11,495 nt of DNA from Candidatus Pacearchaeota archaeon (GTDB taxonomy: Archaea > Nanoarchaeota > Nanoarchaeia > Pacearchaeales > GW2011-AR1). Every line of letters begins with the position of its first letter. Within the stretch, counting starts at the first letter, position 1. The stretch spans positions 1 to 11,495 of the forward strand of contig NZER01000274.1 in assembly GCA_002690445.1 (NCBI GenBank), written 5' to 3'. Shown piece by piece: positions 1-11,495 of this stretch. A program made the translations under genes and the position numbers. The notes under the pieces were generated by a model. It saw only the letters and a list, made by a program, of their open reading frames with translations. It had not been told where the DNA came from and searched no databases.

Positions 1-2
1 AT

Positions 3-1301
3 TTTGAAAAGCTATTTGGGAAGGACGAAGATATCGGCGCCCTTACTCCCGAAATGGCACCACCTCCACCTCCACCTGTGCCTACATACGTCGGCATGGC
101 AAGTATTAAAGGTAAGCTGCGTGCGTTAGAAAAGGAAGCGCGTACAGCTAGCGGCGATCGGGCAACCTCATTACAGGCGGAGAGGGACAGGTATCAGGTC
201 GAGTTGGAAAGATTAGAGGAAGAGTCCGAAGTTGAGACAGCTAAAGGCAAGATGCGGGATGCCGAAAAAGCGGTTGGAGACGCAACGGATAAATTATCAA
301 AATGGGAAATAAATCCTACGCGTGCATTCCCTACAGTCTTTTCTAAACTTGCTGCGGTCATTAGTGTAGCAATGGGAGGTTATGCGCAGGGGTTATCTGG
401 CGGGAAGCTCCCAAACACCGCCCTACAAATTATAACCGATGCAATCAATAGAGACATTGACGCGCAAAAAGCAGAGTTCCAAAAGCTTAAAGGTATGGTT
501 GATGTAAAGCGTAACATGTTTGGTATGGCCATGAAGCAACTAGGCGATACTAGGCAGGCCGAGGAAGTAGCCCGAATGGCCGCTTATCGGACGGTAGGTC
601 TAAACCTTGACTCAATGATGAAACAATACGGGCTTGAAGATACCGTACGCGGCCAGATTATCCAGGGTCTCGGATTAGAACGGGCTGATAATCAAGCGCG
701 GGCTAACTTGCAATTCCAGGCGAAAAAGTATGCGCACCAAGTTGCCTTGAAAGCGCGTGCCAAGGGTAAGCTTTCAAAACAAGCACAGGCTGCGATAGCT
801 TCGTCCCGTGGAATACTTGAGGATATGAAAGGTCTAGGAGATATCGGTAGGGAAGTGGGGGCATCCTTTGGGCCTCTTACGTGGGTATCTGGTGAGGTGC
901 CGTTCTGGGAAACGGACGCGAAAAGGTACAACGACGCATCTGAGCAAATGATTCTAAGGGTAATTAACGCCACAAGCGGTAAGACTATGACCGAATTTGA
1001 GCACAAAAAATTCGCTAAGTGGACCCCTTACGCGCACGATACTCTTGATAATCGTGAGGCTAAAATGCTCAGCTTATTAAGAAACTCCTCAAATAACGCC
1101 GTGGGCTGGTTAGCCGTAGAGTCCCCACAAGCGCGGGCGACCGTCTTAGCAAGCAACCCGACACTTGCCGGGATAATGGACCCAGCCTTGTCGCATGATC
1201 AAAGGATGGCCAATGTTGATAAAATTATGGGCGAAATATCGGAAAGCCACGAGTTTAAAAACGCGCCGGCATATGGCTCCGAGCGGGAACACGGGAAATA
1301 A
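3..1301 (+). CDS. Phage virion-type protein, C-terminal part (5' end outside window)
   Basis: The frame is open to the left edge, so 17 codons precede the first visible ATG at 54. That ATG has no Shine-Dalgarno sequence and sits before a proline run (MAPPPPPPVP, from a CCACCT-type microsatellite near 60-78), so the true start is probably upstream. About 432 residues are visible. After the proline linker comes a charged, coiled-coil-like stretch (about visible residues 30-105). A block around residues 105-215 follows with a small-residue hydrophobic segment (AVISVAMGGYAQGLSGG) and then helices containing ITDAINRDIDAQKAEFQK. I recall blocks of this kind in large uncharacterised phage virion proteins, but I cannot name a family. 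The rest is helical and hydrophilic. The stop lies 5 bases before the next gene, which also looks like a virion protein, so an internal or tail-associated role is inferred. Function is not established. Confidence 0.75.
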   Translation, partial: FEKLFGKDEDIGALTPEMAPPPPPPVPTYVGMASIKGKLRALEKEARTASGDRATSLQAERDRYQVELERLEEESEVETAKGKMRDAEKAVGDATDKLSKWEINPTRAFPTVFSKLAAVISVAMGGYAQGLSGGKLPNTALQIITDAINRDIDAQKAEFQKLKGMVDVKRNMFGMAMKQLGDTRQAEEVARMAAYRTVGLNLDSMMKQYGLEDTVRGQIIQGLGLERADNQARANLQFQAKKYAHQVALKARAKGKLSKQAQAAIASSRGILEDMKGLGDIGREVGASFGPLTWVSGEVPFWETDAKRYNDASEQMILRVINATSGKTMTEFEHKKFAKWTPYAHDTLDNREAKMLSLLRNSSNNAVGWLAVESPQARATVLASNPTLAGIMDPALSHDQRMANVDKIMGEISESHEFKNAPAYGSEREHGK

Positions 1302-1306
1302 CCAGC

Positions 1307-4300
1307 ATGGCACGTCTCTATAACTATAATACAAATGCCTACGAGGAAGTCCCTGAGGACCTTATTCGGGACAAAGTATTAACGGGCAAGTATGTTTTTC
1401 ACCAAAATGAAAAAGTCCCGATTATAGCGACAAATGGCTCTAGGTACCTAATACCTGGCGCTAGGGCGCATGAAGCATTTAGCGACGGGAGCCGATACGG
1501 CAATACAAAAGATTGGGAACGTATAGCCAATAAGGAAGAGTACGCCGAGGGTTGGGAGAACTATGTAGGCGCTGGATTAGCGGGTGCTGGCCGTGGCGCT
1601 ACGTTGGGTTTATCTGATGTAATCCTAGAGCCTTTGCTCGGTAAGGAGCGAATGCAGACATGGAGGAAAGAGCTACCAGAGGTTAGCATTGGTACCGAAA
1701 TTGGTGGTGCGGTTCTCCCTGCTTTATTATCCGGTGGGGGTAGTACAGCGGTATCCGGAACGCAGCTTACCGTCAAAGGTGCAGCCCTTGCACGTAATGC
1801 TCGTACTGCTTTCGGCGTAAGTGATGTGCTACTACCCGCAAAGGGACTTTTCAAAGGCGGGCGCTATTTAGAGGAAACCTTAGCGGGTAGTAAGCTTTTA
1901 GGTCGTACAGCGGATAAGGGGTTGGCTCTTAAAATCCTGCAAACGTCGGTTCCTAAAGGCGTAGCGGGGGCCCTTGAGGGTGCGGCTTTTGGGGCGGGTA
2001 CAACTTTAACAGAGTCGCTTTTAGGTGACCCTGAAGACGTTATGGAGCTGCTAATCTCAAATGTTGGGTTAAGCGCTTTACTTGGCGGTTTCGGGAACGC
2101 TGGAATTAACGCTACCCTGATGGGCGGGGCCGCCGGGACACGAAAATTATCTAACGGATTTGCATCACTTTACGAGAAGGCGACCAATTCAAAATTATCC
2201 GTAGCAGGTCAAAAGAAATATTTTAGCTATCTGGCTAAGTTCCTCGGTAAAGATAGCGCTGAAACCCTAATGAACCAGCAAGGGCTTACTGCAGCAGGGC
2301 AGGCACTCCGAGCGGAAGTAACTGGGTATCAAGCAACGTTTGGGTCCCAGGTGGATGGTATCGCATCAAGTATGAATTCCCTTGCCGATGATGTCGGGGC
2401 GGTCATGGAGGCTTCGAGGCGCGTTGGGAAAGCGGAGGCCGTAAGGGGGTCTATTCTCGAAGGTATAGAATCAACCTCACGAAAAGGATCTGAGGATGCA
2501 CTTCAGGAAGTTGCTGCTTTTCTAGAGGCCAACTCGATGCATTTGGATGCATTTGCGCGTGCGGCCAAAGGCGAATTTAAATGGCGCGGCGCTGTGGGAG
2601 CCCTAAAAGAAGGGGACCCCGCTTTAGTATTACAACGGTTATTCGGGCTAACAAGAAAAGGTACTAGAAACGAAGCTGTTGATGCGTGGCTAGGGCTGGC
2701 GTCTGGGCTTGACGATGTTGCCCTTAAGGAGTTGGCTAAAGATTCCTTTCTAATGCTTGACGATTTTAAGAAGTATTCTCAAGGCTTGGCTTTTGGGGGG
2801 AAAATAGAAGCAAGGGCGGCTGGCCTTACAAGAGAAATGAATGCGAAACTTGGTGGTTTATTGGAGGACGCTGGTCTCTGGGGAGAGGCAGCCGTAAAGC
2901 AAAGTAAAATTAACCCTCTATTTAATGAGCTACTAGAAGCACGAATAGCCTTTCGGGGAGCGTCTGGTTTCAAGGGTCGACTAACAGCGGATAATATAGA
3001 GAAGTTTCTAGAGCAAGTAGTCGATAATCCTAAGCTGGCCGATGCCCTAGGGGATTACGTGGCGGCCGCGAAAAGTTTCGGTAGCACTGCGGGTAAAGAA
3101 TATAATTTTGCTGGTTGGCAAAAGATAGGGGACAAAACAGTAAGTGGGCTATTTGAAAAGGGCTCCGCCGCCGCTGGGAGGCTAGGGTCTGGTAGCTACA
3201 GTAAAACAGCCCTTTTACGTGCAAAAAAACTCGCCGAAGAAGTACGCATGCATAAAGAGCTTTTTGGGATAACCGGATTAGACGCATTCACTAGCGAAGT
3301 TGCTGGCGGATTAATGGGGGCTCTACGAAGCAAGGCAGGGCGTACAGTAGCGAAAGGAATTGTCGGCAAGGCTTTAGGTCTTCGCATACCTGGCGGCGGC
3401 TTCGGAGCAGGTGGCCTTTTGGGTGGGATGTTCGGAGGGCCGGCGGGGGCTATGGCGGGGGCACTACTGGGTGGCCTCGTTGATGGCGCTGGTACTGCGC
3501 GCCAATTGGCAGCTATAGAGCAAGCCGTAAAAAAAGCCAGAAGTGGCCTTAACAAGTCCATGGATAAAACAGTAAAACACCTTACCTCTGGCGGGCCTGG
3601 AGGCAGCATCCCATCACGGCCAAATCGAACTAAACTCTTTCTTGCTCCTTTATCGGCTCAATTTGCCGGAGGCGCTCAAGAGGAAAGCAAAACGAAACAG
3701 GACTACTACAGTAGAGCAAAAACGAGGGGTCAACACTTTGCAGATCCTCAGGTGCTCATGGGCGCTGTAAATAAAGTAACTGAGCCCATTGATCACGATA
3801 TGCCTAATTTGGCTACAGCCATGAAGATGAAGCTCACCACGGCTATTCAGGAAGCTAACGGCGGATTCAACAAAGACAGTCGCACAATAGACGATAAACT
3901 AATGGGTGTCCCAGAACGCCAGCCAACAGATAGGGAAATAGCTCAGCAAGAGATAAGGCTCGCCATTGTTGAAGACCCTATTAACGAGTTCCTGGGAAGT
4001 GTAGCAGACGGCACCGTTACCGCCACTCATACGGAAACCATAAAAAAGGTTTACCCCATGCTATTTAATCATTTAGTGGCGGGGTTACTTGATCGCATCA
4101 CTAGTTCAGAAGATAACGTCTCATATCGTGGCCGAAAGGTTTTGAGTATTGCCTTGGGGCGACCATTCGATGTTTCATATAAATCAGAAAATGTTAACGT
4201 ATTACAATCTTCTTATGGCGAGAAATCGCAAGAAGGCGGTAAGATTAAATCATCACCCTTGATTAAGCACCCCGGCCTAGGTCCTACCGAAGTCGAACGT

Positions 4301-4315
4301 GTAATGATGGGATAG
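1307..4315 (+). CDS. Large Gly/Ala-rich virion protein, candidate internal/ejection protein
   Basis: This is a 1002-residue protein. The N-terminal 60 residues form a beta-like module (LYNYNTNAYEEVPEDLI, later YLIPGARAHEAF). It is followed by Gly/Ala-rich, membrane-compatible segments at about residues 85-112 (GAGLAGAGRGATLGLSD), 130-145, 215-275 and 690-728 (GLLGGMFGGPAGAMAGALLGG). The middle is long and helical. The last 120 residues hold a conserved-looking block (IVEDPINEF, GTVTATHTETIKKVYP, then SYRGRKVLSIALGRPFD). I recall the same order of N-terminal module, 'RGATLGLSD' segment and 'VEDP...VYP' tail in unannotated large proteins of phages and prophages. Abundant glycine-zipper-like hydrophobic segments in a very long virion-module protein suggest an internal protein that enters the host envelope on infection, but this is inference. 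No lytic enzyme motif was seen. A weak GGGA precedes the start, so translation is probably coupled to the gene 5 bases upstream. Confidence 0.8.
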   Translation: MARLYNYNTNAYEEVPEDLIRDKVLTGKYVFHQNEKVPIIATNGSRYLIPGARAHEAFSDGSRYGNTKDWERIANKEEYAEGWENYVGAGLAGAGRGATLGLSDVILEPLLGKERMQTWRKELPEVSIGTEIGGAVLPALLSGGGSTAVSGTQLTVKGAALARNARTAFGVSDVLLPAKGLFKGGRYLEETLAGSKLLGRTADKGLALKILQTSVPKGVAGALEGAAFGAGTTLTESLLGDPEDVMELLISNVGLSALLGGFGNAGINATLMGGAAGTRKLSNGFASLYEKATNSKLSVAGQKKYFSYLAKFLGKDSAETLMNQQGLTAAGQALRAEVTGYQATFGSQVDGIASSMNSLADDVGAVMEASRRVGKAEAVRGSILEGIESTSRKGSEDALQEVAAFLEANSMHLDAFARAAKGEFKWRGAVGALKEGDPALVLQRLFGLTRKGTRNEAVDAWLGLASGLDDVALKELAKDSFLMLDDFKKYSQGLAFGGKIEARAAGLTREMNAKLGGLLEDAGLWGEAAVKQSKINPLFNELLEARIAFRGASGFKGRLTADNIEKFLEQVVDNPKLADALGDYVAAAKSFGSTAGKEYNFAGWQKIGDKTVSGLFEKGSAAAGRLGSGSYSKTALLRAKKLAEEVRMHKELFGITGLDAFTSEVAGGLMGALRSKAGRTVAKGIVGKALGLRIPGGGFGAGGLLGGMFGGPAGAMAGALLGGLVDGAGTARQLAAIEQAVKKARSGLNKSMDKTVKHLTSGGPGGSIPSRPNRTKLFLAPLSAQFAGGAQEESKTKQDYYSRAKTRGQHFADPQVLMGAVNKVTEPIDHDMPNLATAMKMKLTTAIQEANGGFNKDSRTIDDKLMGVPERQPTDREIAQQEIRLAIVEDPINEFLGSVADGTVTATHTETIKKVYPMLFNHLVAGLLDRITSSEDNVSYRGRKVLSIALGRPFDVSYKSENVNVLQSSYGEKSQEGGKIKSSPLIKHPGLGPTEVERVMMG

Positions 4316-4318
4316 GAG
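4314..4318 (+). promoter_or_regulatory. Ribosome binding site overlapping the upstream stop codon
   Basis: AGGAG lies 6 bases before the ATG at 4325 and shares bases with the TAG stop (4313-4315) of the large virion gene. This fixes the start of the small beta-rich protein and suggests translational coupling. Confidence 0.7.
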
Positions 4319-4324
4319 AAACCA

Positions 4325-4750
4325 ATGGGCTGGACTCATTTAGTACATAATAAAGACCTTTCGACACTCGCCGAGATTTCAGCCTCTACCTTGGGGGTTG
4401 ACGCAGTCGCGGGGGATGTGACCACTGATGGGGAATGGATTAAATGTGCGGGGTATAACCAATGCACGCTAATGGTTTTTTATGACCACTCCACAACAGG
4501 GGGCAACCTTGTTTTTAACATCGGGGTGTCAAACGACGGTTCGACCGAATTTCTTTTGCAAACTAGTTCGACTAGTACCGGTGTCGCCACGTTGTCGGAT
4601 TTGCAATACAAGAAAGTGACCGGAACAGCCGATAAACTTTTCGTTGTCGATTTCCCGATTAACTACGAGTATTTCAGTATCCGCAATCTGGCACTAGGCG
4701 GTCACGCAAACGACAAAATCTCTATCACGGCTTTCTTGGGCAATATTTAA
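4325..4750 (+). CDS. Small beta-rich virion-associated protein
   Basis: This 141-residue protein has no membrane segment and is rich in Thr, Ser, Gly, Asn and Asp. Alternating hydrophobic strands (CTLMVFYDHST, NLVFNIGVSNDG, KLFVVDFPINYEYFSIRNLAL) predict a compact beta sandwich. It starts at a clear ribosome binding site and sits between the large virion gene and the fiber-like gene, 22 bases before the latter. Size, composition and position resemble the small head-tail, collar or fiber-associated proteins of environmental phages, but I do not recognise a named family. The structural role rests on context and fold impression only. Candidates are a fiber attachment or decoration subunit. Confidence 0.75.
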   Translation: MGWTHLVHNKDLSTLAEISASTLGVDAVAGDVTTDGEWIKCAGYNQCTLMVFYDHSTTGGNLVFNIGVSNDGSTEFLLQTSSTSTGVATLSDLQYKKVTGTADKLFVVDFPINYEYFSIRNLALGGHANDKISITAFLGNI

Positions 4751-4761
4751 TTAGAACGAAC

Positions 4762-4767
4762 GGAGGG
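4762..4767 (+). promoter_or_regulatory. Ribosome binding site of fiber-like gene
   Basis: GGAGGG is placed 5 bases before the ATG at 4773. It is the strongest Shine-Dalgarno match in the late region and fits a protein needed in many copies. Confidence 0.75.
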
Positions 4768-4772
4768 CCGTT

Positions 4773-6383
4773 ATGGGCTTTAGTACAATCGGAGATTTCG
4801 GCGAAACCCCTAGTGGCGGGGCGGGTAGCTCAGGCCATGAGGGTGTAGATGATCAATCAAGTTCGAATGATGACCAGATCACGATCACAGACACCGAGGT
4901 ATGTATCAACGAGGATGGCGATGATGTCGATTTCAGAATAGAATCTGATGCCAATGATAAAATGTTCGTGGTCAATGGTGGGACCAGCAGAATCGGGATT
5001 GGCACCGATGCCCCCGATGCAATGTTAGAGATCTATGGCGCGACGGGCACAGATAACCAGGAGTTATTTGCAATTTCAGAGGCGGGGAACAATCGCATAG
5101 CTTTGGAGTGTGACTTTAATACTGCCGGTAACCCAGTAATAGTTAAGTCTGATGTAAAAGATAACCTGATGACCCTGGGGACAACAACCGGATACTTTGG
5201 GGTAGGTACTCGTAGTCCGGACACGTTGGTCGAAGTTGTAAAGGCTGCCGGTGATGCGGAGGTGATGGTTTCCTGTTACCACGACACGGAGGCATCAACC
5301 CCAAAAATCACATTCAGAAAGGCAGACAATACCGAAGCCTCTCCGGCACTGGTGGATGATGATGCGGTCCTTGGGACGATTGATTTCCTAGGCCATGATG
5401 GAACGAACTTTGAACGTGGTGCAAAAATAGAGGCGCGGGTTCAAGGAACCTCTGCGAACAACGACCTGCCTACTGAATTGACTTTTTGGACAACTCCAGA
5501 CGGTAGCAATGCGTGCGCCGAGCGAATGTCTATCGGGACCGATGGCGCCGTCGCCGTGAACAAGATCACCACCGCACCTAGCGCCGTTGCTGATGTAGCG
5601 AAAATATATGCGTTTGAAGATGGCAACGATGCAAATACGGTATTGCTTCTGCATTTTGCAGATCTTGCCGATAGTGCGGCTGGTACAACTTCTGTAAAAA
5701 CCCAAACAGCATCAGGGGACGCGGCTGTTTCTACAACGCAGAAAAAATTCGGCACGCACTCTCTCCGGCTGGATGGGACAGGTGACTACATAACTTCTGC
5801 CGGTGCATCAGCTAGTCATACTGATTGGGATATGGGTCAGGGTGATTGGACTATGGAGTTTTGGATTAGGTTCGACGCTGCTCCGGATGGAACGAATATT
5901 GGGTTCATGGGAGCACAAACGTCAAGCACCTCTGAATCGGGTTTTTACTGGTACTATGAGGCCAGTGATAAGAGAACTTATTTCCGCTGGAAAGACACAG
6001 GAGGCACTAGGCGCGACATATCTTACTATGGAGTTCAACACCTAGCGGCTACAACATGGCACCACATGGCCGTTGTTCGGCATGGCACGAGTATTAAGCC
6101 GTATATTAACGGATCTCAAATTTGGATGGATGGTGATAACGACGCGACAGAAACAGTCATGGTCGGTAGCTACACACTTAATGACCCTGATAATGCCATT
6201 ACGATCGGGGCGGTAGACGCAGGAAGTATAGTGGCGACCGCGTGCTATATGGACGAGGTTCGGATCACTAAAGGGGTTGCCGTTTATAAGAATAGCTTCA
6301 CCCCAGCCGCAAGCGCTTTTCCGGTGACTCGACTTTGTACAATCGATGCCGGTGGCGTCAAGAGAGTTCTAGGGGAGCTGTAG
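4773..6383 (+). CDS. Tail-fiber-like protein with C-terminal LamG/ConA-like domain
   Basis: This 536-residue protein begins with a flexible Gly/Ser/Asp-rich 35-residue segment. Short beta modules typical of phage fibers follow, including two copies of a 'GxGTxxPDxxLE' motif (IGIGTDAPDAMLEI, about 74-87, and FGVGTRSPDTLVEV, about 142-155) and a related RMSIGTDGAVAV at 251. From about residue 288 to 517 it carries a Laminin-G/concanavalin-A-like sandwich. Landmarks are LLLHFADLADS, FGTHSLRLDGTGDYI (326-340), DWTMEFWIRF (358-367), TTWHHMAVVR (427-436), IKPYINGSQI (441-450) and YMDEVRITKGVAVY (492-505). This order is characteristic of the LamG-like family (Laminin_G_3 type), which commonly binds sugars. 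The likely role is a distal virion fiber or appendage that recognises surface glycans, but the receptor is unknown. There is no chaperone-type C-terminal autocleavage motif that I can see. Confidence 0.85.
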   Translation: MGFSTIGDFGETPSGGAGSSGHEGVDDQSSSNDDQITITDTEVCINEDGDDVDFRIESDANDKMFVVNGGTSRIGIGTDAPDAMLEIYGATGTDNQELFAISEAGNNRIALECDFNTAGNPVIVKSDVKDNLMTLGTTTGYFGVGTRSPDTLVEVVKAAGDAEVMVSCYHDTEASTPKITFRKADNTEASPALVDDDAVLGTIDFLGHDGTNFERGAKIEARVQGTSANNDLPTELTFWTTPDGSNACAERMSIGTDGAVAVNKITTAPSAVADVAKIYAFEDGNDANTVLLLHFADLADSAAGTTSVKTQTASGDAAVSTTQKKFGTHSLRLDGTGDYITSAGASASHTDWDMGQGDWTMEFWIRFDAAPDGTNIGFMGAQTSSTSESGFYWYYEASDKRTYFRWKDTGGTRRDISYYGVQHLAATTWHHMAVVRHGTSIKPYINGSQIWMDGDNDATETVMVGSYTLNDPDNAITIGAVDAGSIVATACYMDEVRITKGVAVYKNSFTPAASAFPVTRLCTIDAGGVKRVLGEL

Positions 6384-6387
6384 TCGG

Positions 6388-6618
6388 ATGCAAGACAGCG
6401 CAATCACAGCGGCCCTCGTTGGCGTTGTTATGGCGCTAATTAAACTCATTGAAAAAGGGGTACAGGGTAAGAACGGCAACTCGATAGAATATAGACTTGG
6501 ACTCTTGGAGAATCAGATCTTAGAGTTACGAACAAAGCTCCATGATTTCCAGCGTGGATTTTTTGAATTCAGAGAAGAAGCGCGGATCAAATGGGCAAGG
6601 GAGGAAAAAGATGAGTAA
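6388..6618 (+). CDS. Small membrane-anchored coiled-coil protein
   Basis: This is a 76-residue protein. Residues 5-21 (AITAALVGVVMALIKLI) can span a membrane. Residues 33-60 (YRLGLLENQILELRTKL) form heptad-like leucine repeats, and the tail is strongly charged. AGGGGAG at 6371-6377 lies 10 bases before the ATG. It starts 4 bases after the fiber-like gene and overlaps the next holin-like gene by 8 bases. An N-terminal anchor followed by a coiled coil is the layout of an inner-membrane spanin (Rz type), but also of many small phage holin-associated proteins. It differs from XhlA, in which the order is reversed. The lysis role comes from context, and no family is recognised. Confidence 0.7.
   Translation: MQDSAITAALVGVVMALIKLIEKGVQGKNGNSIEYRLGLLENQILELRTKLHDFQRGFFEFREEARIKWAREEKDE
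6598..6605 (+). promoter_or_regulatory. Ribosome binding site deciding the holin start
   Basis: AGGGAGGA ends 5 bases before the ATG at 6611. It selects this start over the in-frame upstream ATG at 6542, which has no such site and would lie deep inside the preceding gene. Confidence 0.75.
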
Positions 6619-6859
6619 GTCAAAACCTGGTGTTAAGTCAACGGAATTCTGGCTCGCAACCTGTGGGATGATCGGGGGCTTAGTGCTCTCCATCTTACCT
6701 GATAATGCATGGACTCAAGTGATAGGCGGGTTACTTGCCGCCATTTGCGGGGCCTCCTACACACTCGGAAGATCTTGGGCTAAGGGCAAAGTCGACTCGG
6801 CGCACGCAACGGCTAAGATTGTTGGGGAGACACTGCTTAAAAAAAAATCCTCGGATTAG
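6611..6859 (+). CDS. Holin-like protein, two membrane segments
   Basis: This 82-residue protein has a polar N terminus (MSKSKPGVKSTEFWL), two hydrophobic segments at about 13-30 and 36-52 separated by a short DNAWTQ turn, then a basic tail (GRSWAKGKVDSAH...KKKSSD). The 'KPGxKSTEFWL ... YTLGRS' pattern matches, from memory, a common family of small phage holin or holin-like proteins. The likely role is insertion in the inner membrane and release of a lysin, but no endolysin gene is in the window to confirm a lysis cassette. It overlaps the upstream gene by 8 bases, and its own ribosome binding site fixes the start. Near its 3' end the codons for KKK form an uninterrupted A9 run in a canonical -1 slippery phase, so a longer 147-residue product is possible (see separate entry). 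Confidence 0.8.
   Translation: MSKSKPGVKSTEFWLATCGMIGGLVLSILPDNAWTQVIGGLLAAICGASYTLGRSWAKGKVDSAHATAKIVGETLLKKKSSD
6824..6847 (+). promoter_or_regulatory. Candidate programmed -1 frameshift signal in holin-like gene
   Basis: The gene reads CTT AAA AAA AAA TCC here. Positions 6841-6847 form the heptamer A AAA AAA, with both triplets in the zero frame. A Shine-Dalgarno-like GGGGAG (6824-6829) lies 11 bases upstream, close to the 10-base spacing of AGGGAG before A AAA AAG in E. coli dnaX. A weak bulged stem (6847-6854 with 6865-6870) directly follows, closer than stimulatory stems usually lie. The zero frame stops 4 codons later (TAG 6857-6859), while the -1 frame is open to TGA 7051-7053. The alternative is a one-base homopolymer error in the assembly. 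Confidence 0.45.
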
Positions 6860-7053
6860 ATGGACCGGATATTAATACTTTGCTTGCTGGCGTACGCCTT
6901 AATCATGACTTCGGCCTTCCTAGCGGAGGCTTCAAGCCGGAAGGCTTTATCCAACTTAATTCAAAAATTGGCGAGAACGTTAGAGCGTTTGCAGAAGCAA
7001 CAGCGACCGCCGAGAGACTAGCCGCCGTTGCAGGTCTAAAGATTTCTTGGTGA
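6847..7053 (+). CDS. Possible -1 frame extension of holin-like protein (68 codons)
   Basis: This frame is stop-free from 6841 to 7050 and has no ATG or GTG start. A -1 slip on the A9 run would join it to residues 1-79 of the holin-like protein and give a 147-residue product. The extension is hydrophilic (LDGPDINTLLAGVRLNHD, then GFKPEGFIQLNSKIGENV) and ends in an Ala-rich helix and GLKISW. Its codons are rich in first-position G and look more coding-like than the overlapping 53-codon frame. It ends one base before the stop of the convergent leftward gene, consistent with tight packing of true genes. A TTG start at 6880 would be another way to express the last 57 residues, with only a weak CGGA upstream. 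I recognise no family. Confidence 0.4.
   Translation: MLGLDGPDINTLLAGVRLNHDFGLPSGGFKPEGFIQLNSKIGENVRAFAEATATAERLAAVAGLKISW
6860..7021 (+). CDS. Small single-pass membrane protein, 53 residues (tentative)
   Basis: The ATG directly follows the holin stop (TAGATG), so termination-reinitiation could start it, although no Shine-Dalgarno sequence is visible. Residues 4-22 (ILILCLLAYALIMTSAFLA) form one membrane segment or uncleaved signal anchor. The rest is a basic amphipathic helix (LSNLIQKLARTLERLQKQQ) ending in RPPRD. Cys8 lacks a small residue at -1, so it is not a convincing lipobox. Position and layout would fit a small spanin, pinholin or holin regulator. However, the Leu-rich composition is also what a shifted reading of another coding frame gives, and the overlapping -1 frame is a rival. 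Both could be used. Confidence 0.4.
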   Translation: MDRILILCLLAYALIMTSAFLAEASSRKALSNLIQKLARTLERLQKQQRPPRD

Positions 7054-7054
7054 C

Positions 7055-7267
7055 CTAGTTCTCTACATTTGACGCTCCCCATTCCAGAGCTAACCTAGTC
7101 TGAATATTCTCCTTTATAGAAAGGGCAGTATCCTCCTGGAGGCTCTCTATACTTCGGTAATCACGGAGTAATGGTGACCAATAAACAACGCTAAAACTCT
7201 TATCCAAGCCAGTCCTTATTTCAACCGATTGGATAGCAAATTGGAACAAACCTTCCCTCGAAAACAT
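7055..7267 (-). CDS. Small leftward protein of unknown function, 70 residues
   Basis: The ATG at 7267 is preceded by AGGGGG 5 bases upstream (7272-7277), so I prefer it to the upstream in-frame GTG at 7306. The protein (MFSREGLFQFAIQSVEIRTG...) is mixed in charge, with aromatic residues in the middle (FSVVYWSPLLRDY) and a helical C-terminal half (SLQEDTALSIKENIQTRLAL). It has no membrane segment, zinc ligands or recognisable helix-turn-helix. Codons look like those of its neighbours. It is alone on its strand between the late genes and the rightward helicase gene, diverges from the latter and converges on the former. That is a position often held by early regulators or host-takeover proteins, but no function can be assigned. 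Confidence 0.55.
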   Translation of the reverse strand: MFSREGLFQFAIQSVEIRTGLDKSFSVVYWSPLLRDYRSIESLQEDTALSIKENIQTRLALEWGASNVEN

Positions 7268-7334
7268 TTTTCCCCCTAAGTGTGTGTTATACCTACATGT
7301 TGCCACACAGGAGAGAACGCTGCAAGAAACTTTC

Positions 7335-7364
7335 TTGACCTTCCTGTGAAGTGTGCTCTAATGT
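7335..7364 (+). promoter_or_regulatory. Possible sigma70-type promoter for the helicase gene
   Basis: TTGACC (7335-7340) matches five of six -35 consensus positions. It is followed after 18 bases by TAATGT (7359-7364), which keeps the key T, A and final T of the -10 box but matches only three of six. It lies about 50 bases before the helicase ATG. The CTAAT direct repeat spans its -10 region and could be a regulator site. Confidence 0.4.
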
Positions 7365-7402
7365 ACGTCTATGCGCTAATAGGGTAATGATAAGAAATAT
7401 AT

Positions 7403-7409
7403 AGGAGGG
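7403..7409 (+). promoter_or_regulatory. Ribosome binding site of helicase gene
   Basis: AGGAGGG lies 3 bases before the ATG at 7413. It is a near-perfect Shine-Dalgarno match with short spacing, and it supports the chosen start. Confidence 0.65.
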
Positions 7410-7412
7410 AAT

Positions 7413-8849
7413 ATGAATGTCTTAGAACACCCCAGCTTTGTTGCCGGTGTACGCAACTATCTTGTTACGTCACCACCTGATTTTGATAGCGAAACTACAA
7501 TAGCTCGACACATCACCGTTTCAAGTAACGTTACCGCACAACAACTAGGATTAAGTGACGAATCACTTTTATCCACCGATGGCTTCGTGTGGTCGTACAA
7601 TGCCACCCAAGGAATTTGGCAACGTATTGAACTCAACCAACTCATAACACTAGCACAACTCTATGACGGAATTTTCACCGCCGACGATCATGGCAAACCA
7701 AAGCGTATAAAGATTGGTTGGCAGCGCGCCGGCAACATTGGGCGGAGTATCCATAGGCTGCACGAATTGCAAGCCCCTAAGTTTTTTAATAATCCGGCTG
7801 CAGGGATACCGTTCACGAATGGGTTTTGTACTGTCACGGAATATGGGCCAGAACTTTCCGAACATGATCCAGACCATGCCGCTACTGTCGCCTATGACTT
7901 TGACCTCGACACGGACGCCGAGCCCCCTGAAAAGTGGTTAGCATTTCTTGGGTCTCTGTGGGACGGTGACGATGATAAGCAGAGTAAAATCAGTGTACTC
8001 CAGGAATTCCTAGGGGCTTCGATTGCTAACATTGTGACCACCTATCAGAAGTGCCTTCTGTTAATCGGAACAGGTAGCAATGGTAAATCTGTTTTATGCG
8101 ATTTGGTTGGGGAGCTATTATTCCCTGAGGGTACGACAACCTATGTCTCACCTCGGCGGTGGGATAGAGATTATTCCTTGGCCAGCTTAAAGGATAGTCG
8201 GATTAACCTCGTTAGCGAATTACCGGAAACATCAGTGCTTGAACAAACCGACGTGTTCAAAGCTGTGGTGGCCGGTGACTTAATCGAGGCTCGGCTCCCA
8301 TATCAACCGCCGTTCTATCTGCGACCATCGGCCGGCCATGTGTTCTCAGCGAATGAGATTCCTAGAACCAAAGATACAAGTCACGGATTCTTTAGGCGAT
8401 TTGTTACGCTCCAATTTAACCAGAACTTTTCAGAGTCTCCGTTTCGTAAAACAAAGGAGGAGATACTCGCATCATTAGAGGACGAGCGCTCTGCCATCAT
8501 AATGTGGGCCCTACACGGGGCGGCACGATTGATACGCCGTGGTGACTATACTGAAGTCAGATCTCACCAAGATATTCTCAACGATTGGCGCAAGGACTCA
8601 GACGCAGTTTTTGATTTTGCCCTGACATGTCTGGATTATCCCAGTAACCTTGTTACACCACTGCAAAGCCTGAGAGACCAATACCAAGCCTGGGCTCGTA
8701 GAGTTGGTCGGTGTGAAGATATAGCAGAACGAACACTATCTAAACGGTTAATAAAGATTCGCGGGCTAGAGAAAAAGCGAGTAGCGAAAGGGGTGGCGTT
8801 TAAATGTGACGTCCGGCCAATAAGCGATTGGGGAGAGTCCGTTAACTAG
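7413..8849 (+). CDS. Superfamily 3 helicase, phage D5/P4-primase type (no primase domain)
   Basis: This 478-residue protein is the helicase half of a P4/D5-type replication protein. A D5_N-like region precedes the ATPase (NGFCTVT near 136, then a helical stretch to 210). The ATPase motifs are Walker A GTGSNGKS (219-226), a Walker B strand INLVSEL with acidic E269 (264-270), and SF3 motif C FSANEIPRTKD (311-321, sensor N314), followed by GFFRRF (325-330) with candidate arginine finger. The C-terminal 100 residues are basic and could form a winged helix for DNA binding. Such enzymes form hexameric 3'-5' helicases at phage or plasmid origins. The N-terminal 130 residues lack the catalytic motifs of a primase. 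A separate primase gene lies on the other strand downstream, so the two activities are split. The 3' end overlaps the convergent regulator gene by 8 bases. Confidence 0.9.
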   Translation: MNVLEHPSFVAGVRNYLVTSPPDFDSETTIARHITVSSNVTAQQLGLSDESLLSTDGFVWSYNATQGIWQRIELNQLITLAQLYDGIFTADDHGKPKRIKIGWQRAGNIGRSIHRLHELQAPKFFNNPAAGIPFTNGFCTVTEYGPELSEHDPDHAATVAYDFDLDTDAEPPEKWLAFLGSLWDGDDDKQSKISVLQEFLGASIANIVTTYQKCLLLIGTGSNGKSVLCDLVGELLFPEGTTTYVSPRRWDRDYSLASLKDSRINLVSELPETSVLEQTDVFKAVVAGDLIEARLPYQPPFYLRPSAGHVFSANEIPRTKDTSHGFFRRFVTLQFNQNFSESPFRKTKEEILASLEDERSAIIMWALHGAARLIRRGDYTEVRSHQDILNDWRKDSDAVFDFALTCLDYPSNLVTPLQSLRDQYQAWARRVGRCEDIAERTLSKRLIKIRGLEKKRVAKGVAFKCDVRPISDWGESVN

Positions 8850-9078
8850 CCTCCATCCAATATGACATTGGGATGTCAGCCAACTTGTAGATCTTATACA
8901 TAGCATCGGGGTTGGGCTTTCTTGACCCTGTTACGTATCTAGATATCCTAGATTTTGGGTACCCTAGTAACTCGCCTGCTTTTGTGTATGTTAACCCGCG
9001 TTCCATTATCCACTGATAAAGTAACTTACTTCCTCTTGAGTCGCCGGGGATTCCCGGCTTTCTTCCACGTCTCGCCAT
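8842..9078 (-). CDS. Cro/XRE-type helix-turn-helix DNA-binding protein
   Basis: This 78-residue protein begins with a basic N terminus (MARRGRKPGIPGDSRGSK) resembling an AT-hook but lacking the exact GRP core. A five-helix XRE-like fold follows: LTYTKAGELLGYPKSRISRY (29-48) is the helix-turn-helix, then VTGSRKPNPDAMYKIYKLAD, the usual 'G.r.P....l.kia..l' continuation. The ATG overlaps the VRR-NUC stop as TAATG, with AGGGAG a few bases upstream, so it is the last gene of the leftward operon and translationally coupled. It probably acts as a repressor or Cro-like switch on early promoters, possibly its own operon or the divergent region at 7268-7412. Targets are not shown by the sequence. Its 3' end overlaps the helicase gene on the other strand by 8 bases. 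Confidence 0.85.
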   Translation of the reverse strand: MARRGRKPGIPGDSRGSKLLYQWIMERGLTYTKAGELLGYPKSRISRYVTGSRKPNPDAMYKIYKLADIPMSYWMEAS

Positions 9079-9587
9079 TACTTAACTCCCTGTTGATGTA
9101 TATAGCCTAAGCGTTCTAATTCTAATATCGTTTCGGCATACCCTTTACATACGGCCGTATGCCATCCTATCCGCTTGAGATTGTCTAGCCATTCTCTTTG
9201 CTTATCGCTTAAGCGTCCGCCTTTTTTACGTTTCAGTTCTATGGCCACACCGCGAACGGCTGGCATGTTTGGGGCCGGTTCAAAAATAAGTATGTCCGGA
9301 ACACCAGACTTTAGCCCTGCAGCCCTTAGCCTTGAGCCTGCTATCACGTCCCGCTTTCCTTCATTCGGAACATGGCACCAAACTACGTTTAGTTTATTGA
9401 GTATCGTTGCAATAGCTGTTTGTATTTGTCGCTCTGTCCATTCGTCGGGGTTTTTCGATTTCGGCTTTTTCTTTTTGGTCGTTGTAGCTCGTATAAGCTC
9501 GTCATCACCTTCGCCGGTTTTTCGGTCCTTATCCCGCTTCGTTTCGTAGCGCTTCACCGCTGCAAGAATTCTTGATTTGTAATCCAT
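9078..9587 (-). CDS. VRR-NUC domain nuclease
   Basis: This 169-residue protein opens with about 48 lysine-rich, probably disordered residues (TTTKKKKPKSKN). A VRR-NUC domain of the PD-(D/E)XK superfamily fills 50-165. Landmarks are WTERQIQTAI (50-59), HVPNEGKRD (72-80), GLKSGVPDIL with catalytic Asp98 (91-100), AIELKRKKGGRLSDKQREWL with Glu117 and Lys119 (115-134), and GWHTAVCKGYAE (141-152). The full active-site set is present. Stand-alone phage VRR-NUC proteins belong to the family that includes the nuclease domain of FAN1 and cut branched or flapped DNA, so recombination or replication processing is likely here. It lies downstream of primase and RecT in the same operon, after an 82-base gap. 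The start follows a tiny ATG ACT TAA reading frame by one base, so translation may be by reinitiation. Confidence 0.9.
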   Translation of the reverse strand: MDYKSRILAAVKRYETKRDKDRKTGEGDDELIRATTTKKKKPKSKNPDEWTERQIQTAIATILNKLNVVWCHVPNEGKRDVIAGSRLRAAGLKSGVPDILIFEPAPNMPAVRGVAIELKRKKGGRLSDKQREWLDNLKRIGWHTAVCKGYAETILELERLGYIHQQGVK

Positions 9588-9669
9588 TTTAAGTCATTCT
9601 CTTCCTAACCTTTCTCATGTGTGTGGAAGGGGTGGGGGGTTGGGGCTCGCTGGCCCTGTCCTCCCGCCG
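9588..9669 (-). other. 82-base gap with G/C-tract and tiny leader frames
   Basis: The plus strand has GGGG, GGGGGG and GGGG tracts at 9629-9645 separated by one or two T, preceded by GGAA. The leftward mRNA is therefore C-rich here. A short GC hairpin (GGGC at 9643-9646 with GCCC at 9653-9656) adjoins it, without a following U run. Nearer the nuclease start, AGGA (9603-9606) lies 5 bases before an ATG at 9597 that opens a two-codon frame ending one base before the true start at 9587. A longer frame from ATG 9618 reads MRKVRKRMT and ends at the same stop. Confidence 0.5.
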
Positions 9670-10485
9670 TTAAAGATACCGCTTGCATGACCTCAGTATT
9701 CGCCTTACTTCTTTTTCTGAAAGAGGCGGCTTGCACCTGAGCCGATTCAATTCGAGCAAGAGCTCTTCAACTTCCTCCATCGATTTATCTTCCCATATCC
9801 ACCTACCCGCCCATCGGCACAGTTCTGAATTACGGCCGCCATCATAGATAACGGGGATACTTGCTGGGGATACATGCGGTTTTGGCCTGTCAAAATTTTG
9901 ACTAGAACTAGCAACCGCCGTTTTCCCTACTAAGATTTGCCTCAGAAAAATAGGAGGGTCCGCTATCTTAGCATCGCTTGACCACCGATAACGCTTTCCC
10001 GCTATATGTACCGAGGGCGGTGCTACAACATATCCACCGTCCGCACGTATATCGACTCCCGGCATTACGCCCGTTCTACTTCGGTAAGAGTTATCTCCAC
10101 ACCGAAAGAACAAATGCGCACCGTTCCCAGTTTGAGCCGTGAGCGTTTTTGGTAGCTTGCCGCATTGCCGCTGCAATGACTTAATGCTTTTGCTACCTAT
10201 GTCACCGTCTATATCGACAACAAGCACACCACTAACTCGACCGGTCGCTATCCCTATGTTCGCGTTCGGCCACTTCTTCCACCAACTCCGGATCCTAGCT
10301 TCGTCCCTAGTTGCGTTCTTTACGCCAGACTCCAGTGTTCTTGCTTGCCAGTGCGGGTGCTTGCCGGGGCTTGTACATCCAGCCCTCGCTTTACATGTAC
10401 AGTGACCAGAGGTAATTGAATGGATGGGGAATACGTTAAACCCCTGGCCACTGTACAACAACGCCCAATCAAGCATTGAGCTCAT
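9670..10485 (-). CDS. AEP-superfamily primase-polymerase (Prim-Pol) with PriCT-like tail
   Basis: This 271-residue protein has the bifunctional primase/polymerase fold. It begins with the typical 'ALLYSGQGFNVFPI' strand, then a probable zinc-binding loop (HCTCKARAGCTSPGKHP, ligands Cys29, Cys31, Cys37, His43). NIGIATG precedes the catalytic DxD in VLVVDIDGD (Asp91, Asp93). The nucleotide-binding His124 is in GNGAHLFFR, and the third acidic residue, Asp145, is in GVDIRADGGYVVAPPS. Residues 208-271 (IPVIYDGGRNSELCRWAGRWI, ending SEKEVRRILRSCKRYL) match a PriCT-type helical domain. It would make primers and possibly extend them on phage DNA. The partner helicase is probably the SF3 protein encoded on the other strand, which lacks a primase domain. 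The start overlaps the RecT gene by 17 bases. I prefer ATG 10485 over ATG 10476 because AAAGGAG lies 10 bases before it, though spacing is long. Confidence 0.9.
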   Translation of the reverse strand: MSSMLDWALLYSGQGFNVFPIHSITSGHCTCKARAGCTSPGKHPHWQARTLESGVKNATRDEARIRSWWKKWPNANIGIATGRVSGVLVVDIDGDIGSKSIKSLQRQCGKLPKTLTAQTGNGAHLFFRCGDNSYRSRTGVMPGVDIRADGGYVVAPPSVHIAGKRYRWSSDAKIADPPIFLRQILVGKTAVASSSQNFDRPKPHVSPASIPVIYDGGRNSELCRWAGRWIWEDKSMEEVEELLLELNRLRCKPPLSEKEVRRILRSCKRYL

Positions 10486-11263
10486 GAGCCAACCGCTCCT
10501 TTAAACTCGATGGCGGGGCAGGGACTTCCCCGATGTTAGCGTCAATGATTTGATTTGCTTCGATGAAATCGTCTAAGTCATCAACTTCAGGGTCGATAAA
10601 AATTCCATCATTAGCTTTGTTCTCAATAGCTGCAGCCCTCGCCACATTAGCGCCAAGTGGCAGAGTCTTGACCATTCGCTTAATGGCCACCTTCTTAGCC
10701 ATTTCCTCCGGCCACTGAGCCCAAGCGGGGTTAGTCTTCCCGCCTCTCTTGGAAAGTGCTTTAGCTTTCTCAATATCGGACCAGGGCACGACTTCAAAAC
10801 GAGCATAGCCACTCTCAAAGATTGCCACTGCATAGACGTGGGTAGGCACCCCTCTCTGGCCTGGTGCTAACTCATGCTCCAGATTGGGACGCAACCCTCT
10901 CGTTACTTTGAATAAGTCGTTTTCACACACTGTCTCAGCGTAGATATCTTGGATCTTCCCAGACTCAAGAGCTAACTTAATCCAACCCCGATAGCCAATC
11001 TGCAGCGTACACGATTTGCCATATGGGATTAGGTGGGCCTCATTCAGAATGGGACTCAGTGACAACCCCAAGCCGCACGTCTGCATGAGTGACCGATAGA
11101 TTGACACATGGGAACAGTCCAAAATCTTTTGGTTGTCCGTCGCTGCAATCACCGCCATTTTTAGCGCTTCATCAACGCTCTTATTCTCTGGCATTACCTT
11201 AGCTACTTCTAAGCTCTTGGAATCAAGGAACTTTACTAGATCGCCTGCTTTGTTTGCACTCAT
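10469..11263 (-). CDS. recT: RecT-family single-strand annealing protein
   Basis: This 264-residue protein has the length and motif order of RecT. Helical N-terminal segments precede RSLMQTCGLGLSLSPILNEAHLIPYG (57-82), then the hallmark CTLQIGYRGWIKLALESGKI (85-104), AETVCENDLF (109-118), VYAVAIFESGYARFEVVPW (143-161) and NPAWAQWPEEMAKKVAIKRM (178-197), where the W..W..EM..K..ikR pattern is typical. It ends in an acidic, proline-containing tail that may contact other replication proteins. It anneals single strands exposed by a partner exonuclease. The gene for that partner (YqaJ-type) lies directly upstream and overlaps it as ATGA, with AGAGGAG just before the ATG. The 3' end overlaps the primase start. 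Together they form a two-gene exonuclease-annealase recombination pair. Confidence 0.92.
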   Translation of the reverse strand: MSANKAGDLVKFLDSKSLEVAKVMPENKSVDEALKMAVIAATDNQKILDCSHVSIYRSLMQTCGLGLSLSPILNEAHLIPYGKSCTLQIGYRGWIKLALESGKIQDIYAETVCENDLFKVTRGLRPNLEHELAPGQRGVPTHVYAVAIFESGYARFEVVPWSDIEKAKALSKRGGKTNPAWAQWPEEMAKKVAIKRMVKTLPLGANVARAAAIENKANDGIFIDPEVDDLDDFIEANQIIDANIGEVPAPPSSLKERLAHELNA

Positions 11264-11495
11264 GACTTTGCTCCTCTTGGCTTGGCCCGTCTCAAAATGC
11301 GCGAGCCTTCTGCGTATGTTGTGTGTTTGTCAAACAGATCTGTATATTTCGGGTAGAGCTCAGCGGTAATCGCTTTATAGTCCACTACCTTTTTTAGCTT
11401 GTTTGCTTTCAATGTCCATTTGAAATCCGGGCCCACTACTCCCAAGTTCTCGCTGATACGCTCCCGGAAATGGTTTTGAATCTTCTTTTTCTCAG
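11260..11495 (-). CDS. YqaJ-type viral recombinase/exonuclease, C-terminal part (5' end outside window)
   Basis: The frame is open through the right edge, with 16 codons upstream of the first possible TTG, so this is the last 78 or so residues of a longer protein. The visible part (EKKKIQNHFRERISENLG..., then FKWTLKANKLKKVVDYKAI and LFDKHTTYAEGSRIL) matches the C-terminal tail of YqaJ-family exonucleases, in which a 'tWK...k..vD.kal..e.P..Y..f......SR.f' pattern closes the protein. The catalytic PD-(D/E)XK core is beyond the window, so activity cannot be checked. The stop overlaps the recT start (ATGA), the usual exonuclease-annealase pairing. Such enzymes resect double-stranded ends 5' to 3'. 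A different exonuclease family with a similar tail is possible but less likely given RecT next to it. Confidence 0.7.
   Translation of the reverse strand, partial: EKKKIQNHFRERISENLGVVGPDFKWTLKANKLKKVVDYKAITAELYPKYTDLFDKHTTYAEGSRILRRAKPRGAKS

Follow-up and report, generated by a model that had tools for sequence, protein, structure and literature searches.

The closest described systems to the locus reported here are E. coli dnaX, lambda G/GT and P2 E/E+E', which share with it an in-phase slippery heptamer of the form X XXY YYZ and a short plus a C-terminally extended product, the shifted product of dnaX being the shorter of the two (PMC5009743; this and all other papers are cited from excerpts of their text). 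An upstream Shine-Dalgarno-like element is a further common feature in some clades of the present family, and a downstream stem in one. The -1 frameshifts of phages have mostly been described from genes for tail assembly and capsids (PMC5009743, PMC10274946, PMC4283147, PMC3091744); lysins are named among frameshift-containing genes as well, and frameshifting in the MS2 coat gene feeds the lysis gene, so that recoding near lysis is not wholly new (PMC10274946). Here we describe a holin-like gene on contig NZER01000274.1 (assembly GCA_002690445.1), positions 1-11,495 of whose forward strand form the stretch analysed, called the window throughout. Unlike dnaX and the tail genes, the target is here a gene of the lysis region, and the extension resembles a membrane anchor. 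The gene belongs to what appears to be a family of uncultivated phages in which one small lysis-type gene gives two proteins by a -1 slip, and judging from sequence comparison it is very probable that this frameshift is programmed and its product selected.

The codons that close the holin-like gene, which starts with the ATG at 6611, are CTT AAA AAA AAA TCC TCG GAT TAG, and from this zero-frame series it follows that A AAA AAA at 6841-6847 is in phase for a -1 shift. The -1 frame is open from 6841, with a TAA at 6838-6840 closing its upstream side and a terminal TGA at 7051-7053. The predicted products of 6611-7053 are thus 82 residues long without and 147 residues long with the shift. The sequence-only reading had proposed the phase of the heptamer, the GGGGAG 11 bases upstream and the 68 codons of -1 frame running to 7053, all of which the sequence bears out. 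The elements concerned are the following.

6611..6859, + strand: zero-frame holin-like gene, 82 residues, two hydrophobic stretches (ORF (open reading frame) reading, relatives and hydropathy; endolysin nearby in 6/7 relatives tested)
6824..6829, + strand: GGGGAG, Shine-Dalgarno-like, with the heptamer 11 bases downstream (sequence and pairing energy)
6841..6847, + strand: slippery heptamer A AAA AAA, in phase, within the A9 run 6839-6847 (sequence, relatives and synonymous reshuffle)
6857..6859, + strand: zero-frame stop TAG (ORF reading)
6847..7053, + strand: -1-frame extension, 68 codons and a stop, which would yield the 147-residue form (relatives and coding selection)

A first scan for relatives found one, and the joined 147-residue query yielded six proteins, all of them short (80-83 residues) and one of them the window's own; the short relatives P0002-P0006 end in KK(N/S)SSD. 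From a profile scan of IMG/VR, 80 of 89 relatives were examined, giving 81 loci together with the window. An in-phase slippery heptamer lies close to the zero-frame stop in 57 of these (27 A AAA AAG, 25 G GGA AAG, four A AAA AAA and one C CCA AAG; where a gene has two in-phase heptamers, as in L003, L007 and L028, the last one was counted). The likeness to dnaX that had been suggested for the window thus holds for the in-phase heptamer and, in 27 of the 57 loci, for the motif A AAA AAG, whereas the window itself carries A AAA AAA. The -1 frame is open in all 57 loci, running off the contig in three (L023, L047 and L054), and each of the 54 complete -1 ORFs terminates in G-x-x-hydrophobic-x-aromatic-stop. 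The other 24 loci (L004, L058 and L060-L081) have a -1 frame without that end motif, the extension being scored as absent on the sole basis of the -1 frame around the holin's stop codon; the nearest relative among them is L004, with 45% identity. The sequence-only reading had stated what would refute a frameshift, namely relatives whose -1 frame contains stops or that lack the in-phase heptamer; what was found is that the frame is open wherever the heptamer occurs and that heptamer and extension are lacking together.

Scans based on the extension gave 44 loci, 27 of which lie on contigs already in the set and three of which (L104-L106) start inside the extension. All 14 usable new contigs have the heptamer at the junction, L108 and L109 looking identical there, L088, L101 and L103 covering only the holin end and L122 having its extension cut. 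Of 116 proteins of the family, 109 are 78-92 residues long, and no in-frame fusion of holin and domain was found among the 116, as judged by length and by reading the seven that are longer than 92 residues. Three (P0113-P0115) look like gene calls of the extension that begin in the holin's -1 frame. The INPHARED phages gave no relatives with three queries, and the GTDB genomes none with the single pattern used.

For comparison with chance, the 54 complete loci were reduced to 26 representatives less than 85% identical to each other, the window included. An in-phase X XXY YYZ is present within the last 16 codons of all 26, as against a mean of 2.29 and a maximum of 9 in 5000 synonymous reshuffles. 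In detail, these last 16 codons hold 28 heptamers in phase versus 7 and 5 in the other two phases, the remainder of the 26 genes has 3 further in-phase heptamers in 2143 codons, and 24 outgroup genes have none in phase and 5 out of phase; as the loci are related, these counts are descriptive and not independent. On the tree, which was built with the columns of the slippery site included, the type of heptamer switches five times and X XXY YYZ is retained throughout. One starred fork holds both GTG GGA AAG (L026, L036) and GTA AAA AAG (L027, L031), suggesting that one slippery site was replaced by another.

Selection on the -1 frame points in the same direction. Past the holin stop, the ratio of nonsynonymous to synonymous change (dN/dS) in five clades with 46 loci is 0.26-0.46 for the -1 frame, 0.62-0.77 for the zero frame and 1.3-1.9 for the +1 frame. 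Stops interrupt the zero frame in 46 of 46 loci and the +1 frame in 45 of 46; their absence from the -1 frame is by construction, as each region analysed ends at the first stop of that frame. The clades were grouped by hand from 45 of the 54 complete loci plus L108, leaving out L006, L007, L016, L017, L018, L020, L042, L050 and L055; pairs more than 98% alike were skipped, and the pairs are not independent. In two clades the dN/dS of the holin part was saturated and could not be computed. For the same loci, the proportion of synonymous differences (pS) is lower in the -1 frame than in the holin part (0.40-0.58 vs 0.55-0.82), which hints at a further constraint. A zero-frame ORF at 6860-7021 was considered as a third overlapping gene and found unsupported, the zero-frame dN/dS of the window's clade (0.63) lying within the range of 0.62-0.77 seen in the others and giving no indication of separate coding selection; this ORF encodes 53 residues, by eye transmembrane-like, with a hydrophobic start and a basic tail, and similar ones occur in L002 and L003.

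Regarding stimulatory elements, the pairing of GGGGAG in the window amounts to -8.5 kcal/mol, and equally strong stretches make up 7% of its own gene. Strong Shine-Dalgarno-like pairing upstream of the heptamer, i.e. with less than 10% of own-gene stretches as strong, was found in 11 of 26 genes; seven representatives have GGAGG at this place and L042 has AAGGAGG. A general downstream structure was not found across the family (mean z-scores -0.55 and -0.56). In clade D, which is characterized by G GGA AAG and GCCAGC...GTTGGC, a stem starts six bases past the heptamer, and across 11 distinct sequences 99 of 99 cells are paired, with three pairs changed on both sides. Such both-side changes were matched in 2 of 500 shuffles, and slid controls are 21-31% paired; the structure was derived from the sequences on which it was tested, and kinship alone can exceed shuffles. 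This analysis used 13 of 17 rows, excluding the near copies L047, L050 and L059 and also L055, which is one base longer and in whose given register some of the stem pairs break. The covariation test was confined to clade D, and possible stems were seen by eye in clades A and B. As the P2 E+E' frameshift does without a downstream stem (PMC3091744), we treat such a stem as common and not obligatory. The in-phase heptamer that has been kept, the coding selection on the -1 frame, the missing start codons described below and the covarying stem of one clade together show that a frameshift product is selected for, and comparison with the relatives strongly supports the earlier proposal that frameshifting yields products of 82 and 147 residues.

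Other routes to the same arrangement were weighed against a ribosomal slip. The window's A9 run could allow the -1-frame product to be made by the polymerase instead of the ribosome, nine consecutive A being a length at which bacterial transcription slips (PMC5009743); we regard this as improbable, because in 53 of the 57 loci the site reads AAAAAAG, GGGAAAG or CCCAAAG, short or mixed runs on which a polymerase slips poorly, and the codon phase is kept. The same A9 run might be taken for a one-base homopolymer error that leaves the 147-residue protein as the sole product, which the sequence-only reading had considered the main rival. This now seems extremely unlikely in view of 54 complete loci that are built alike, 50 of which have one of these three heptamers and no long A run, of the lack of any in-frame fusion among the family proteins and of the short forms with the KK(N/S)SSD ending. 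It is also very unlikely that the -1 ORF is a separate gene translated by coupled re-initiation near the holin stop. Some relatives do have a -1-frame start near the stop (an ATG at the stop in L026, L036 and L040), and P0113-P0115 appear to have been called from starts in that frame; yet upstream of the four-strand region ATG, GTG and TTG are all missing from 10 of 54 loci (4 of 26 representatives), rarer starts being uncounted, and ATG is missing from 38 of 54 (17 of 26), so that separate initiation at a usual start is not the general rule, and the heptamer and the covarying stem would be left unexplained. A separate gene with a TGATG overlap had been our early reading, based on L001 (same contig as L040) and on short forms ending in SSD-stop, and it was overturned by the 80 loci. 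Finally, the gene might be a tail-assembly-chaperone frameshift, as in lambda G/GT or P2 E/E+E', misread as a holin. The sizes are similar to those of P2, where E has 91 residues and E+E' has 142 (PMC3091744), but the two hydrophobic stretches, the lysis-type neighbours and a domain of the outer-membrane instead of the cytosolic type make this highly unlikely.

The nature of the extension was approached by modelling. Two AlphaFold models of the extension show four strands, which in the model of L021 are preceded by a helix. On the window these predicted elements and the C-terminal motif lie as follows.

6877..6906, + strand: extension beta strand 1, predicted (AlphaFold model residues 13-22)
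6931..6966, + strand: extension beta strand 2, predicted (AlphaFold model residues 31-42)
6979..7008, + strand: extension beta strand 3, predicted (AlphaFold model residues 47-56)
7018..7044, + strand: extension beta strand 4, predicted (AlphaFold model residues 60-68)
7033..7050, + strand: C-terminal GLKISW, i.e. G-x-x-hydrophobic-x-aromatic (pattern fits 54/54 complete extensions)

In a structure comparison with L021, the three highest PDB rows were Hia, Hia and AtaA, tied with unrelated rows, and among the viral matches of the extension YadA-like phage adhesins are abundant; a profile search of solved structures gave nothing meaningful. The GLKISW-type C-terminus resembles the sorting signal of outer-membrane barrels. 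With the YadA-like anchors (Hia, AtaA, YadA) the extension shares four strands by prediction (after a helix in L021), the aromatic C-terminus and the structural match, whereas neither a signal peptide nor a passenger is seen here, the domain is joined by the frameshift to a protein with two hydrophobic stretches, and its Pfam score lies below the cut-off. We therefore predict, as the likely case, that the extension is an outer-membrane anchor of the trimeric-autotransporter type.

The assignment of the short form as a holin is supported by size, by the two hydrophobic stretches and by the nearby endolysin, features which it shares with Phage_holin_10 and the PHROG holins, the matches to these families being weak. 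In the window, the two stretches are placed by sliding hydropathy only.

6653..6697, + strand: hydrophobic stretch 1, LATCGMIGGLVLSIL
6719..6763, + strand: hydrophobic stretch 2, VIGGLLAAICGASYT

In the 26 representatives, the two best 15-residue windows have mean hydropathies of 1.72-2.64 and 1.24-2.03, obtained without a transmembrane predictor; the script always picks two windows, so that the presence of two stretches rests on these values. The net charge is +1 or +2 at the N-terminus in 25 of 26 (-1 in L006), -1 or -2 in the loop and +2 or +3 at the C-terminus, a charge pattern suggesting that the holin part has its two termini in the cytoplasm. No holin family exceeded its cut-off (Phage_holin_10 reached 20.7 bits in L021 against a cut-off of 27, the first codon being missing from some of the proteins tested), and the gene is filed as holin-like only.

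Taken jointly, a programmed frameshift and an outer-membrane-type domain are in our judgement probable, the spanin step discussed below not being included. Several points weigh against this combination. The heptamer of the window is unremarkable when taken alone, as a synonymous reshuffle yields one in 29% of trials; the window has no notable downstream stem (z-scores +1.33 and +1.19); and the Shine-Dalgarno-like pairing is weak in a number of genes, among them L002 and L003, near relatives of the window in which no such site is found. In addition, the best score against the Pfam family YadA_anchor (PF03895) was 13.4 bits with a cut-off of 22.7, and the extension is not filed as a member.

According to the mechanism that we propose, ribosomes that do not slip would stop at 6859 and make the 82-residue holin-like protein, whereas those slipping back one base on the heptamer would make the 147-residue form with its added beta domain; in the window only, polymerase slippage on the A9 run may contribute as well. 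With the two termini of the holin part apparently on the cytoplasmic side, the anchor formed by the beta domain would have no access to the periplasm until the holin lesion opens. This lesion would both release the endolysin and expose the trimeric barrel anchor, and the exposed domain may then insert into the outer membrane, bridge the two membranes and help to break the outer one. The spanin-like step would thereby be timed by the holin, with reversed order and no lipid, and the amount of disruptor would be set by the efficiency of frameshifting. That the long form tethers the inner to the outer membrane in a spanin-like manner is a tentative suggestion, somewhat less likely true than false, and we are slightly more reserved still about a unimolecular outer-membrane disruptor made by frameshifting on its own holin gene, i.e. 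a spanin class without a lipoprotein. With the unimolecular spanin of phage T1 (gp11) the long form would share an inner- and an outer-membrane part in one protein and a beta-rich character, but the order is reversed and a lipobox is lacking; the N-terminal lipobox and C-terminal transmembrane segment by which unimolecular spanins are recognised are absent, and the protein may work like one without being a member.

Our second choice after the anchor is a role in timing of the antiholin type, in which frameshifting likewise makes the two forms but the long one acts in the inner membrane and cytoplasm and inhibits or times the short holin, the beta domain doing no more than block holin assembly. 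The termini of the holin part, both cytoplasmic by charge, would suit such a role, holin genes that give two products from two starts are known, and a minor longer form fits an inhibitor. A mere blocker would need neither an outer-membrane-type end motif, which is present in 54 of 54 complete extensions, nor the likeness to autotransporter anchors, and we consider this explanation rather unlikely. The sequence-only reading had described a holin/antiholin-like pair with a hydrophilic tail. The two forms stand, but the tail is a conserved domain of predicted beta strands that resembles trimeric-autotransporter anchors, and the earlier description is probably wrong.

A frameshift within a holin gene is not described in the excerpted parts of PMC5009743, PMC6139136, PMC10274946, PMC12596118, PMC7260188, PMC4283147 and PMC3091744, and a printed case may exist. 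If true, recoding would here have a new use, a conserved frameshift in a holin-like gene supplying an outer-membrane-type domain, and phages possibly a new route for breaking the bacterial outer wall. It would also be one way in which phages lacking a recognisable spanin could get through the outer membrane, a spanin not having been found in about 13% of the genomes surveyed (PMC6139136). Ordinary gene calling tends to report the short form only, as seen from the lengths of the family proteins.

The surroundings of the gene were compared as well. A tail-assembly-chaperone gene would be expected next to the tape measure gene; the neighbours listed here include an endolysin, a coiled-coil-like gene and a gene for a large structural protein. 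Peptidase M15 matches accompany the holin in L006, L013, L040 and L056 and also, from the opposite strand, in L002; L112 has an amidase, the neighbour tested in L019 was without a match, and the window showed no endolysin. The holin-like gene is preceded by the gene of a small protein:

6388..6618, + strand: small protein, one hydrophobic stretch, coiled-coil-like tail (by eye), overlapping the holin start (similar gene at the same place in relatives)

In the outgroup, at least 7 of 24 loci (L070, L072, L073, L077 and L079-L081) have, instead of the extension, a lipobox-like -1-frame ORF overlapping the holin; those of L070 and L081 gave no PHROG match. Since such an ORF lies behind the same kind of gene, the sequences suggest that the position after the holin often serves the outer membrane. 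The ORF of L070 (1350-1616) has the lipobox-like start ASCVMLGSNGC and no slippery site, and may be an o-spanin-like lipoprotein. The Rz family (PF03245) was found in none of 12 contigs, which says little given the diversity of spanins and the possibly fragmentary contigs. When 19 sequences were scanned with a simple lipobox pattern, hits fell on the holins of L013, L016 and L022 themselves and on a further ORF of L002.

Upstream of the holin, L011, L038, L040 and L051 have a conserved gene of 103-106 residues, starting with M(M)SQWSWTY or MMGQWSWTYML, which is flanked by the genes of the large structural protein and of the coiled-coil-like protein. Downstream in the window, a minus-strand ORF at 7055-7306 precedes a primase/helicase-like gene at 7413-8849 on the + strand (DUF5906, PHROG DNA primase).

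P0020 and P0074 are labelled by source as belonging to genome bins of a Pacearchaeota and of an Aequorivita and are probably misplaced phage contigs. The 68-kb contig IMGVR_UViG_3300030099_006113 has two family members (L030 and L037), perhaps because two phages were joined in assembly. In P0116 (162 residues), the holin-like part continues in frame into a lipobox-like stretch, MLGCGTPG, which perhaps represents an alternative joining route.
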